From: Chloroflexota bacterium
GTDB lineage: Bacteria > Chloroflexota > Anaerolineae > Promineifilales > Promineifilaceae
Assembly: GCA_024275635.1 (NCBI GenBank)
Contig: JAJRYT010000169.1
Coordinates: 1 to 64,000, forward strand
Length of the DNA stretch: 64,000 nt
Direction: 5' to 3'
The stretch's first letter is position 1; the number at the start of each line of letters is the position of its first letter. The notes under the pieces were generated by a model. The model made no database searches and was not told the origin of the DNA. It was given only the letters and a program-made list of their open reading frames with translations. Below are positions 55,702 to 60,273 of the stretch, piece by piece. The translations under genes and the position numbers were made by a program.

Positions 55702-56145
55702 ATGAAAACAAGACGACGCGCTCGCCGCGTTACCCTTGAAACGCTTTACGAATATGACATTGTCGACCATCCTGCAGGTGAAGTTTTGCAGCGTCGTCTG
55801 CAAGAGAACCCAATGGAAAATGCCGGTGTTGCCTTCACTTCACATCTGTTAACGGGCGTCATCGAACATTTGACGGAAATAGACCGTCTCATCGCGCGGT
55901 ACGCCCCGGAATGGCCTCTTGACCAAATGGCTGTCATTGACCGTAATATTCTACGTATAGCCATCTTTGAATTCCTGATTTTTGGAGAAACCCCTGTCAA
56001 AGTTGCGATTAATGAAGCTGTTGAATTGGCTAAAACTTACGCCTCGGACAGCGCGCCTCGTTTCATTAATGGGGTGCTGGGGTCATTAGCAGACCAAATA
56101 CCGGCGCTGAAACAAGAACTCATGGCTGTTCCCGTACCCGAATAA
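55702..56145 (+). CDS. nusB: Transcription antitermination factor NusB
   Basis: 147-aa all-helical protein that binds NusE and boxA RNA in rRNA antitermination. Start [19 protein letters not shown], with the usual Arg-rich N-terminus, and the conserved [32 protein letters not shown] near the end. 80 bp after asp23-2. Confidence 0.95.
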
Positions 56146-56400: not shown

Positions 56401-56429
56401 TTGACAGAGCCATTTCCAGATGTTATGAT
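56401..56429 (+). promoter_or_regulatory. Sigma-70 promoter of the pheST attenuator
   Basis: TTGACA (56401-56406), 17-base spacer, TATGAT (56424-56429). The expected start (A at about 56436) is only three bases before the leader-peptide ATG, so the leader would be translated from a nearly leaderless transcript. Confidence 0.8.
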
Positions 56430-56438
56430 GCGCCCATC

Positions 56439-56516
56439 ATGATGAACACACGATTTTTTAGCTTTTTCTTTAGAAATGCCGCTCAACTGTTCGCGCAGGA
56501 GGTTGTTTCTGCTTGA
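56439..56516 (+). CDS. Phenylalanine-rich leader peptide of pheST
   Basis: A 25-codon ORF, MMNTRFFSFFFRNAAQLFAQEVVSA, starting just downstream of a sigma-70 promoter and ending 32 bp before an attenuator-type terminator. Codons 6, 7, 9, 10, 11 and 18 are Phe. The Phe cluster matches what is known for the E. coli pheST leader (pheM, also rich in Phe). The track reports it only as the end of a 66-aa ORF (56316..56516) whose earlier part lies upstream of the promoter. It acts as a sensor of charged tRNA-Phe, by inference. Confidence 0.85.
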   Translation: MMNTRFFSFFFRNAAQLFAQEVVSA

Positions 56517-56577
56517 GAAAAAGCAAACACAACTACACGATTCCGATAAGACGCGGCATAATACCCGCGTCTTTTTT
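56476..56577 (+). promoter_or_regulatory. pheST transcription attenuator (antiterminator and terminator)
   Basis: Terminator: AAGACGCGG (56548-56556) pairs with CCGCGTCTT (56565-56573), followed by TTTTATTTTT. Antiterminator: ATGCCGC inside the leader ORF (56476-56482, immediately after the Phe codons) is the exact complement of GCGGCAT (56553-56559), which includes most of the terminator's left arm. A ribosome stalled on the Phe codons would leave ATGCCGC free to pair, preventing the terminator and letting pheST be transcribed. This is the classical logic of amino-acid attenuation; pairing energies were not computed. Confidence 0.8.
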
Positions 56578-56640
56578 ATTTTTGCCTGGAAGGAATTTAT
56601 CATTCATCCTTCCTCATTCATGATTTCTTAGGATGATAAC

Positions 56641-57666
56641 ATGCTGGCACAATTAGATGAACTATACTCCGACTCATTAGAGAAATTGAAGCAGTGTGAG
56701 GAAACGGCCGTTCTCGACGCCTGGTATAAGCAAACCCTGGGCCGTAAAGGCAGCATCTACCTCATGACCCGCCAGGTCGGCCAACTCAGCCCCGAAGAAC
56801 GGCCCGCCTTCGGCAAACGCATCAACGCCGTCAAGCAAGAACTGCAAGCCGCCTACGAACAGCGTCTGGCTGAATTGAAAGCCGCCGAACTCACGGCCCA
56901 AATGGCCGCGTCAGCTATTGACGTAACCCTGCCCGGACGCAAACAATGGCGTGGACGGCTGCACCCGGCTACCCAAACCCTGCGTGAAATCTACCGCATT
57001 TGGGGGGACATGGGGTTCCAGATTTACCGCAGCCGCGACGTCGAAACCGACGAGTATAACTTCGAGCTGCTCAACATTCCCCAAGACCACCCGGCGCGCG
57101 ACATGTGGGACACCTTCCATACCACTGCGCCCGGCGTTATCCTGCGCACCCACACCAGCCCGGGGCAGATTCACGCCATGCGCGAATATCATCCGGAACC
57201 GATTCGAGTTATTCTGCCCGGCATGTGCTACCGTTACGAGCAAATAACCGCCCGCGCCGAAATCCAGTTTCATCAAGTCGAAGGGTTGGCTGTCGGTAAA
57301 AACATCACCCTGGCCGATCTCAAAGGGACGCTAACGGACTTTGCCCGGCGAATGTTTGGCGCCCACCGGCAGGTACGCTTCCGGGCCAACTACTTCCCCT
57401 TCACCGAACCTAGCGCCGAGATGGATGTGGAATGTATTCTTTGCAATGGCGCTGGCTGTAATGTCTGCAAATACACCGGCTGGCTGGAGATTCTCGGCTG
57501 CGGCATGGTTCACCCCACCGTCCTGCGCAACGGAGGCTACGATCCGGACATCTACTCCGGCTTTGCCTTTGGTATGGGGCCGGAACGCATCGCCATGCTC
57601 AAATACCATATTGACGACATCCGCTATTTCTGGGGGAATGACCTCCGCTTCCTGCAACAATTCTAA
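56641..57666 (+). CDS. pheS: Phenylalanyl-tRNA synthetase alpha subunit
   Basis: 341-aa class II synthetase subunit. An N-terminal coiled coil (about 1-90) is followed by the catalytic core: TLREIYRIWGDMGFQIYRSRDVETDEYNFELLNIPQDHPARDMWDTF, motif 2 RVILPGMCYRYEQITARAEIQFHQVEG, and motif 3 YSGFAFGMGPERIAMLKY. A four-Cys insertion (CILCNGAGCNVC) in the ECxxCxG region is seen as in some bacterial PheS. The gene is cotranscribed with pheT and preceded by the attenuator. Confidence 0.96.
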   Translation: MLAQLDELYSDSLEKLKQCEETAVLDAWYKQTLGRKGSIYLMTRQVGQLSPEERPAFGKRINAVKQELQAAYEQRLAELKAAELTAQMAASAIDVTLPGRKQWRGRLHPATQTLREIYRIWGDMGFQIYRSRDVETDEYNFELLNIPQDHPARDMWDTFHTTAPGVILRTHTSPGQIHAMREYHPEPIRVILPGMCYRYEQITARAEIQFHQVEGLAVGKNITLADLKGTLTDFARRMFGAHRQVRFRANYFPFTEPSAEMDVECILCNGAGCNVCKYTGWLEILGCGMVHPTVLRNGGYDPDIYSGFAFGMGPERIAMLKYHIDDIRYFWGNDLRFLQQF

Positions 57667-57738: not shown

Positions 57739-60273
57739 ATGCTCGTACCCATTTCCTGGCTCAAAGATTATGTAGACATAACCCTGCCGGTTGAAGAACT
57801 GGCTGAAAAGCTGACCATCGCTGGAGTGGAAGTTGAACATATTGATTACGTCGGCATCCCCGGCGGCAATGACAAAAACCGGCTTGTTTGGGACCGTGAT
57901 AAAGTCCTCGTCGGTCACATCCGCAAGGTCGAACAACACCCCAACGCTGACCGGCTGGTGCTGGCAACGGTGGATTACGGCGGCGCAGAAAACGAGGTGA
58001 CTGTTACCGGCGCGCCCAATCTGTTCCCATACGTAGGGCAGGGGGACATCAGCCCTCTCAAACTATACTCTCCTTTTGCGATGGAGGGGGCGATTCTCTA
58101 TGACGGGCACAAAGAGGGGCAGGTAAAGACGAAGTTGAAGGGACGGCCGTTACGCGGCATCCACAACCGCTGTATGCTTTGTTCCGAAAAAGAGCTTGGT
58201 CTCAGCGACGAACACGAAGGGATCATGATTCTTGAAGGCGAATACACGCCCGGTACACCTTTGCAAGACGTGCTGGGTGACGCCGTCCTCAGCATAGACA
58301 TCATTCCCAACATCGCCCGCTGCGCTTCCATCGTTGGCGTAGCCCGTGAAGTGGCCGCTCTCACCGGCCAGCAGGTGCGCTATCCCAGCTATGACGTGCG
58401 GCAAGAAGGGCCGCTAGTTGACGGCAAAGTGGTTATCACCACCGAAAATCCAGACCTGAACCCGCGATTCACAGCCATGGTCATCACAGGCGTTGAACAA
58501 AAACCCAGCCCCCAGTGGATGCAGCGCCGCTTGCGCCTGGCCGGGCAGCGTCCCATCAACGTCGTCGTGGACATCAGCAACTACGTCATGCTAGAGATGG
58601 GCGAACCTAACCACACCTTCGACTACGACTACCTGCGTGGACGCGCCGACGTCTACAATGGACTTGACGGCCCCATCCACCTCATCACCCGCCTGCCCCA
58701 AGACGGGGAAAAATTGACGACACTCGATGGTGAAACCCGCGATCTGCCACCCACCACGATTCTTGTCACCGATCCGGCTGGCGGGCTTAGTTTGGGCGGC
58801 ATCATGGGCGGCGAAACGAGCGAGATTAGCGACCACACGACCAATGTGTTGCTAGAGGCGGCATCCTGGAATTTTATCAATATCCGCCGCAGTATGAGCC
58901 TGCTGAAAATTAACAGCGAGGCCGGCTTCCGTTTTAGCCGGGGCGTACATCCCAGTCAATCTGTTTTAGGAGCCAAACGCGCTGCTGAACTGCTGCGTCA
59001 ATTGGCGGGCGGTACGGTGTGGCAGGGTATCATTGATTATTATCCCCTGCCACCACAACCAGTCACGCTCAAATTAACGGCCGCTGAAGTCCAGCGCATT
59101 GGCGGCATCAGCCCCAGCCATGCTGAAATTAAGCAAATGCTGGAGGCGCTGGAGTTCACAGTTGAGGACAAGGGCAATCATTTGCTGGTAACGGCGCCTG
59201 ATCACCGGCTGGACATTGAGTTCACAAATGACCTGGTGGAGGAAGTTTGTCGCATGTATGGCTATGATAAACTGCCGGCCACAGAAATGAGCGACACGCT
59301 TCCGCCGCAGCGTGCCAATACCAGGCTGGAACAGGAGGAGCGGATTAAGGATAGTTTAGTCCAGCTTGGTTTGCAGGAAATCATCACCTACCGGCTGACG
59401 ACGCCGGAGCGGGAAGGGAAGCTGCTGCTGTCTGAAGAAGGGATCGCAGCGGATGAACGTCCATACGTCACCCTCGCCAATCCCATCACCGTAGACCGGG
59501 CCGTGATGCGGCACAGTTTGCTGGCGGCGGCGTTGGAAATTGCCGCCGCCAACAGCCGTTTTCAAGAACATATGGCCCTGTTCGAAGTGGGGCAAATCTA
59601 CCTGGCTTCGGAAGAAGGGGCGCTGCACGACGAATTAGGACGTCTCTCTCTGGTCATGACCGGCCCGCGTCGCCAGCTTTCCTGGCAGGAAAATAACCAG
59701 GATGAGGCGTTGGACTTTTTCGATTTGAAAGGGGTTATCGAAATGTTGTTGGCCGATCTGCACGTAGAGGGGTTGACTTTAGAAGCCGCTGCTCATCCTA
59801 CTTTCCGCCCTGGCCGCACGGCGCGAGCGCTGCTCGACGGTCACCAACTGGGCTGGATGGGTGAGATGCACCCGTTGGTCGTGGAAGGGTTTGACATCCG
59901 CACGGAACGCCCTGTTTTGGCGGCGGAACTGGATTTGGATTTGCTCTTAAGCCAGATTCCTGCGGGGTATCATACTGAGCCGGTGTCGAATTATCCGGCC
60001 GTTCATGAGGATTTGGCATTGGTGGTGGATAAAACGGTTTCTGCCGCCGAAGTCGCGGCCCAGATGCAGCGGGCCGGCGGTTTCTTACTTAAAAATGTCG
60101 AATTATTTGACATCTATGAAGGCCGGCAGATTGCACCTGGCAAAAAGAGTTTGGCCTACCATCTCACCTTCCAATCGCCCGGCAAGACGCTGACGGATAA
60201 GGATACGCAGAAGCAGCGTAAACGTATCCTCAAACAGTTGGCGTATCATCTGGGTGCACGCTTGCGCGAATGA
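57739..60273 (+). CDS. pheT: Phenylalanyl-tRNA synthetase beta subunit
   Basis: 844-aa partner of PheS. ATG 57739 (MLVPISWLKDYVDITLPVEELAEKLTIAGVEVE) is the family start, behind CGGAG; the track adds 19 repeat-derived residues. Domains: tRNA-bind OB fold (DKVLVGHIRKVEQHPNADRL, about 55-180), B3/B4 editing domain (RFTAMVITGVEQKPSPQWMQRRL, NVVVDISNYVMLEMGEPNHTFD, about 235-420), B5 (LTAAEVQRIGG), catalytic-like core, and C-terminal FDX-ACB (PVSNYPAVHEDLALVVDK). The B-region RLRLAGQRPINVVVDI is intact, so editing is probably retained. Confidence 0.96.
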   Translation: MLVPISWLKDYVDITLPVEELAEKLTIAGVEVEHIDYVGIPGGNDKNRLVWDRDKVLVGHIRKVEQHPNADRLVLATVDYGGAENEVTVTGAPNLFPYVGQGDISPLKLYSPFAMEGAILYDGHKEGQVKTKLKGRPLRGIHNRCMLCSEKELGLSDEHEGIMILEGEYTPGTPLQDVLGDAVLSIDIIPNIARCASIVGVAREVAALTGQQVRYPSYDVRQEGPLVDGKVVITTENPDLNPRFTAMVITGVEQKPSPQWMQRRLRLAGQRPINVVVDISNYVMLEMGEPNHTFDYDYLRGRADVYNGLDGPIHLITRLPQDGEKLTTLDGETRDLPPTTILVTDPAGGLSLGGIMGGETSEISDHTTNVLLEAASWNFINIRRSMSLLKINSEAGFRFSRGVHPSQSVLGAKRAAELLRQLAGGTVWQGIIDYYPLPPQPVTLKLTAAEVQRIGGISPSHAEIKQMLEALEFTVEDKGNHLLVTAPDHRLDIEFTNDLVEEVCRMYGYDKLPATEMSDTLPPQRANTRLEQEERIKDSLVQLGLQEIITYRLTTPEREGKLLLSEEGIAADERPYVTLANPITVDRAVMRHSLLAAALEIAAANSRFQEHMALFEVGQIYLASEEGALHDELGRLSLVMTGPRRQLSWQENNQDEALDFFDLKGVIEMLLADLHVEGLTLEAAAHPTFRPGRTARALLDGHQLGWMGEMHPLVVEGFDIRTERPVLAAELDLDLLLSQIPAGYHTEPVSNYPAVHEDLALVVDKTVSAAEVAAQMQRAGGFLLKNVELFDIYEGRQIAPGKKSLAYHLTFQSPGKTLTDKDTQKQRKRILKQLAYHLGARLRE

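Follow-up and report, generated by a model that had tools for sequence, protein, structure and literature searches.

The pheST attenuator of E. coli comprises a Phe-rich leader peptide, PheM, and alternative terminator and antiterminator hairpins. T-boxes likewise act before an intrinsic terminator and answer to tRNA charging; they sense uncharged tRNA directly and have no leader ORF. Attenuation of pheST in γ-Proteobacteria is cited in PMC1262725, and the same paper describes classical attenuators before two aminoacyl-tRNA synthetase genes of Streptomyces, trpS and leuS. The trpL leader peptide of Sinorhizobium meliloti is leaderless: its RNA starts at the ATG (PMC7298713). For Chloroflexota, our literature search, whose coverage excluded most subscription journals, found no report of ribosome-mediated attenuation, in line with the initial annotation of the DNA analysed here, which had noted the lack of a precedent.

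Here we analyse a stretch of 64,000 nucleotides (the window) from a Chloroflexota genome assembled to 5.7 Mb in 253 contigs. Judged from sequence, pheST in this window is very probably governed by a ribosome-mediated transcription attenuator with a leaderless sensor ORF. The kind of mechanism is known; here it stands in a phylum for which our search found no report, with a predicted leaderless sensor, an extra hairpin (P2) and a set of targets. Like E. coli pheM, the leader has pheST as its target operon, a Phe-rich leader peptide and terminator/antiterminator alternatives. It differs from pheM in phylum, in its predicted leaderless sensor, in a helix (P1) built on the Phe codons, in P2, and in having same-class relatives that use T-boxes. 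It would share with S. meliloti trpL a leader ORF at the extreme 5′ end of the transcript, but trpL concerns Trp in an alphaproteobacterium and is experimentally established, whereas the Chloroflexota leader is predicted solely from promoter spacing. Streptomyces trpS and leuS also place classical attenuators ahead of synthetase genes beyond Proteobacteria, though in Actinobacteria and for Trp and Leu instead of Phe. The T-boxes (RF00230) of other Anaerolineae precede the same gene, pheS, and also lie ahead of an intrinsic terminator; unlike the leader described here they have no leader ORF, and they are absent from the pheS regions of this family.

Architecture of the pheST leader

All features of the locus lie on the forward strand. 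The upstream neighbour in the ORF list (55702–56145) encodes a protein that looks NusB-like by sequence. Directly downstream of the leader, NCBIfam models identified the proposed targets, pheS (56641–57663; phenylalanyl-tRNA synthetase alpha subunit, TIGR00468, 317.5 bits, cut-off 237.45) and pheT (57742–60273; beta subunit, TIGR00472, 654.3 bits, cut-off 402.65). The consensus promoter claimed in the initial annotation was found at 56401–56429: it is of the sigma-70 type, TTGACA-17-TATGAT, with 11 of 12 consensus matches and an extended −10 TG, and is assigned from its sequence and its spacing to the leader ATG. Sites with at least 9 of 12 matches are expected 1.6 times in the stretch scanned. 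Transcription is predicted to start at about 56436, some 3 nt 5′ of the leader ATG. The 25-codon Phe-rich ORF named in that annotation is present at 56439–56516 and reads MMNTRFFSFFFRNAAQLFAQEVVSA followed by a stop codon; it is predicted to be translated leaderless. Five Phe fall within six of its codons, and these control codons (6, 7, 9, 10 and 11) occupy 56454–56471.

Four competing helices are supported in this leader by the sequence analysis. Two of them, the antiterminator and the terminator, had been proposed before; P1 and the stop-codon hairpin P2 had not. P1, the strongest element of the leader fold, pairs Phe codons with bases 3′ of the stop codon: its 5′ arm, segment 1 (56461–56470), consists of Phe codons, and its 3′ arm, segment 1′ (56515–56524), starts at the stop codon, both being assigned from the MFE fold, partner-swap tests and covariation. 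In the fold, the inner part of P1 (56471–56511) encloses segment 2, ATGCCGC (56476–56482), the 5′ arm of the antiterminator, for which a synonymous-recoding control was used. Its claimed 7-bp partner does exist: segment 3, GCGGCAT (56553–56559), overlaps the 5′ arm of the terminator. P2 (56501–56534), assigned from the fold and a partner-swap test, surrounds the stop codon and is nested in the antiterminator; it joins the last leader codons to the linker, with 56501–56506 pairing with 56529–56534 and 56510–56514 with 56521–56525, and shares bases with P1. The intrinsic terminator, AAGACGCGG-CATAATAC-CCGCGTCTT and a T-run (56548–56578), also turned out as proposed, with a 9-bp stem at 56548–56573 and the T-run directly 3′; it is assigned from the fold and from covariation. 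P1 and the terminator are mutually exclusive with P2 and the antiterminator. The leader RNA as a whole folds more stably than shuffled sequences (z = −2.96), with 1 of 200 shuffles equally stable.

Conservation across the family

The named relatives, with 78–87% PheS identity, are MAGs labelled Chloroflexi, Chloroflexota, Anaerolineae and Ardenticatenaceae. A Phe-rich leader ORF precedes pheS in 37 of the 38 same-family regions in our wider scan (for example MNQQRFFSFFFFNNVRAAFAPEVRSA), and promoter, ORF and terminator are kept in a fixed order in these 37 or nearly as many. A narrower scan, accepting ATG ORFs of 12–45 codons with at least 4 Phe per 8 residues within 450 nt of pheS, retained 33 of 38 family genomes; Markov shuffles gave a mean of 0.75 per 38, and outside the family 3 of 91 qualified. 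The exception, L013, has a similar terminator before pheS without a leader ORF. Its genome (G019, 94% complete) yielded zero genome-wide matches to a covariance model of the leader, and G018, from the same genus, yielded five.

The spacing behind the leaderless prediction is likewise kept. In 35 of 36 family leaders the −10 box ends 6–10 nt before the ATG, in 23 of them exactly 9 nt, as in the window. The sole exception, L005, has its −10 box 31 nt upstream and AAGGA before the ATG, which fits a leader that needs translation. From promoter spacing, leaderless translation is predicted throughout the family. Changes at the three codon positions of the leader ORF numbered 675/600/558. There is no third-position excess, and the peptide beyond the control codons therefore shows no sign of protein-level selection.

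Evidence for pairing

Family genomes share kinship, and dereplication corrects the covariation statistics below only in part. RNAalifold on a MAFFT alignment recovered the terminator, with two-sided changes in four pairs, as the only helix, owing to the variable length of the linkers; we turned to partner-swap tests in its place. For P1, native partners gave −12.5 versus −10.4 ± 0.41 when swapped, and none of 5000 permutations was as good; the same held in a dereplicated set (n = 23; 0 of 5000). In the P1 and terminator columns together, 88.4% of cells were paired, against 45–65% when the columns were slid, and there were 36 two-sided changes versus 14.6. For P2, 1 of 10000 permutations matched the native pairing in a dereplicated set (n = 25).

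The antiterminator duplex between leader and terminator arm averaged −15.8 kcal/mol, compared with −12.8 ± 0.37 in synonymous recodings of the same peptides. The leader segment is mostly an in-frame GCC GCG or GCC GTG, usually 22 nt 5′ of the stop codon, and changes jointly with its partner, as in GCCGTGC/GCACGGC (L005) and GCTGTGC/GCGCGGC (L037). The automatic antiterminator register was off for the window leader (L001), L020 and L031, and the window pair was taken from direct reading of the sequence. The recoding control and the joint changes both point to an antiterminator whose formation excludes the terminator. Complementarity or covariation in all stems thus stood above the recoding and partner-swap controls. 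The outcome that the initial annotation had named as refuting, relatives lacking a Phe-rich ORF or compensating changes in the stems, did not occur. With conservation, this strongly supports the leader-peptide reading of the initial annotation, regulation itself being predicted from the same sequences.

A putative switch

In the proposed mechanism, RNA polymerase would start about 3 nt 5′ of the leader ATG and a ribosome would load at the 5′ end of the RNA. With ample Phe-tRNA, this ribosome would pass the Phe codons, reach the stop codon, open P2 and depart; P1 could then form and sequester segment 2, so that the terminator would form and transcription would stop ahead of pheS. With scarce Phe-tRNA, a ribosome stalled on the Phe codons would cover segment 1 and block P1; P2 would form, segment 2 would pair with the 5′ arm of the terminator, and transcription would read through into pheST. 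Segment 2 would stay uncovered if the ribosome lingered at the stop codon, so that termination in times of plenty would depend on prompt release.

Folding with masked 5′ ends backs this switch in part. The uncovered control-codon region pairs, as P1, in a way that favours the terminator. When the Phe codons were masked and the terminator was still incomplete, segments 2 and 3 paired with a mean probability of 0.98, versus 0.72 in free RNA; in several genomes this pairing precedes completion of the terminator with no ribosome stalled at all. At equilibrium, full-length leaders favour the terminator in both states (0.90 free versus 0.76 stalled), and in the full-length leader of the window it forms in every masked state, with no equilibrium switch. 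As the terminator wins in most of these full-length folds, the switch would have to be kinetic, decided during transcription. Folding at equilibrium, with the 5′ ends masked, was discarded as a test of switching: a kinetic switch can be neither proven nor refuted in this way.

T-boxes in relatives

The initial annotation had regarded T-boxes as the device that Firmicutes use before pheST. They are used there, but many Anaerolineae relatives from the same class also have one before pheS. Outside the family, 61 of 91 distinct pheS regions carry the T-box motif GGTGGNACCGCG (shuffles, about 2 per 104); none of the 38 family pheS regions does. At the Rfam gathering threshold, which missed the relatives' T-boxes in a set that included some motif-bearing loci, the 64-kb window gave zero matches, T-box RF00230, known leaders and riboswitches included. 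At a lowered threshold, RF00230 matched all seven motif-bearing class relatives tested (E 6e-7 to 9e-21), among them L042, which belongs to the same order as the source genome. Given the absence of Rfam matches in the window at the gathering threshold and of the motif in the family regions, a T-box or riboswitch as the pheST leader was rejected.

T-boxes are nonetheless retained in the family: the 20 genomes searched carry 4–9 each, while pheST, tyrS and aroH-aroF have leader peptides. In the source genome, one T-box (G000:C8:3539-3882:-) lies about 180 nt ahead of trpE. Read most simply, these distributions mean that in this family a T-box at pheST probably gave way to leader-peptide attenuation.

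Similar leaders before other genes

A covariance model built from the pheST leader and searched in family genomes gave at least one match at E up to 0.1 in 50 of 52, and most of the family genomes have matches at additional loci. Matches before other genes share the build of the pheST leader. In the source genome, a leader on contig C181 (L155, G000:C181:16820-17027:-) has a Phe/Tyr-rich ORF, MSKMTAFFSFYFYFFTNHL..., with a like promoter and terminator, before the genes for chorismate mutase and DAHP synthase (aroH-aroF). Another, on C50 (L157, G000:C50:13898-14076:+), has a Tyr-rich ORF of like build, MMQKHAFNYYYG..., before tyrS. Both patterns are repeated across the family, before aroH-aroF (L156, L188, L191, L194, L196, L199, L202, L205, L208–L212, L214, L216, L217, L220, L222, L227) and before tyrS (L158, L189, L192, L195, L197, L200, L201, L204, L213, L218, L219, L224, L225). 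The same promoter-ORF-terminator build, its ORF lacking a run of a single amino acid, also precedes an ABC exporter ATPase gene (L159 in G000:C19, L193, L198, L207, L215, L223, L226).

At alaS, roughly half of the scanned loci (L293–L322) have leader ORFs with runs of about 5–7 Ala; in the source genome this ORF is MNQFSSIIQNSAAAAAGQTSGLDRLCA (L297), and its promoter position does not make it leaderless. At lysX, leader ORFs carry KKxKK clusters (L203, L221, L323–L333), and several loci have two Lys-rich ORFs in a row. Except for the model matches L190, L203 and L221, the alaS and lysX leaders were picked by an Ala or Lys residue filter and are weaker evidence because they were chosen for those residues. 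In the best of them, too, a promoter of the TTGACA type lies a few bases 5′ of the ATG. We know of no leader-peptide attenuator for Ala (alaS) or Lys (lysX) elsewhere. The mean best counts per 8 residues were F 4.9 for pheST, F 4.3 with Y 2.2 for aroH-aroF, Y 3.1 for tyrS, A 5.4 for alaS and K 4.6 for lysX; cognate residues thus prevail in all five target groups, which were assembled by hand.

Similar elements were seen farther afield. Family f54, of the same phylum and outside the class (genomes of 1.4–2.1 Mb), gave weak matches, with MIARNSFYAYYFTWCPGG... before DAHP synthase and Phe/Tyr-rich leaders ahead of an AMP-ligase-like gene. Leaders in Chloroflexota outside the class precede aroF (L149, L151, L358), the AMP-ligase-like gene (L355–L357, L361) and an ilvD-like gene (L354, MNSLRFSLVLIITYCSQ); they are rich in fitting amino acids and have a promoter close 5′ of the ATG. 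Weak matches in family f27 (L150, L152–L154) were set aside: they look like unrelated terminators and have no fitting leader ORF. Family f43 (L050, L053, L057), which belongs to the same class, has before pheS a longer Phe-rich ORF that begins 3′ of a purine-rich, AGGAGA-like site resembling a Shine-Dalgarno sequence and has a terminator after it; this seems to be a second, differently built design. Taking these leaders together, we think it likely that attenuators with leaderless leader peptides form a regulon in Chloroflexota that serves several amino acids, including Ala at alaS and Lys at lysX, and that in this family the system took over genes under T-box control in relatives and left Trp genes to T-boxes.

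Discussion

What the sequences show of the pheST attenuator is its anatomy, the conservation of that anatomy and the covariation of its helices, and the competing readings have to be weighed against these. The ORF could be translated and the terminator real while regulation comes from a leader-binding protein or tRNA instead of the position of the ribosome on the Phe codons. The abundance of T-boxes in these genomes and the lack of an equilibrium switch in the window leader would fit such a regulator, but no T-box was found in the window at the gathering threshold or, by motif, before pheS in the family; moreover, the control codons themselves form one arm of P1, and codon clusters fit the gene in five target groups. 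We consider this reading very unlikely. Less likely still is a small ORF that encodes a functional peptide, with the RNA stems secondary. A C-terminal motif like AxEVxSA does recur, yet that stretch encodes the 5′ arm of P2 and adjoins the antiterminator arm, the codon-position counts show no third-position excess, and paralogous leaders have a common architecture with differing peptide sequences.

The least probable reading, to which we give hardly any weight, is that the Phe-rich ORF arose by chance in the gap that separates the upstream gene from an ordinary terminator, with the pheST promoter further downstream. The terminator does sit between two genes, and L013 keeps its terminator without the ORF, but the fixed order of promoter, ORF and terminator and the compensatory changes in the helices tell against chance. 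So does the terminator type, ACGCGG..CCGCGTYTTTTT, which occurs at three sites in the 5.7-Mb source genome, each at a leader element. Conservation in the family refutes a chance ORF. We therefore favour ribosome-mediated attenuation of pheST.

This reading would extend attenuation to a deep phylum, alongside abundant T-boxes in the same genomes. Two of its design features merit testing, the conserved, predicted-leaderless sensor ORF and the stop-codon hairpin, and the leader codon clusters would give a direct read-out of the amino acid that controls each gene in uncultured bacteria. With leader peptides and T-boxes side by side, it becomes possible to test gene by gene how one way of sensing is exchanged for the other. 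If the wider reading, of a regulon that took over genes from T-boxes, is true, a single class shows a lineage swapping tRNA-sensing for ribosome-sensing control, one gene at a time.
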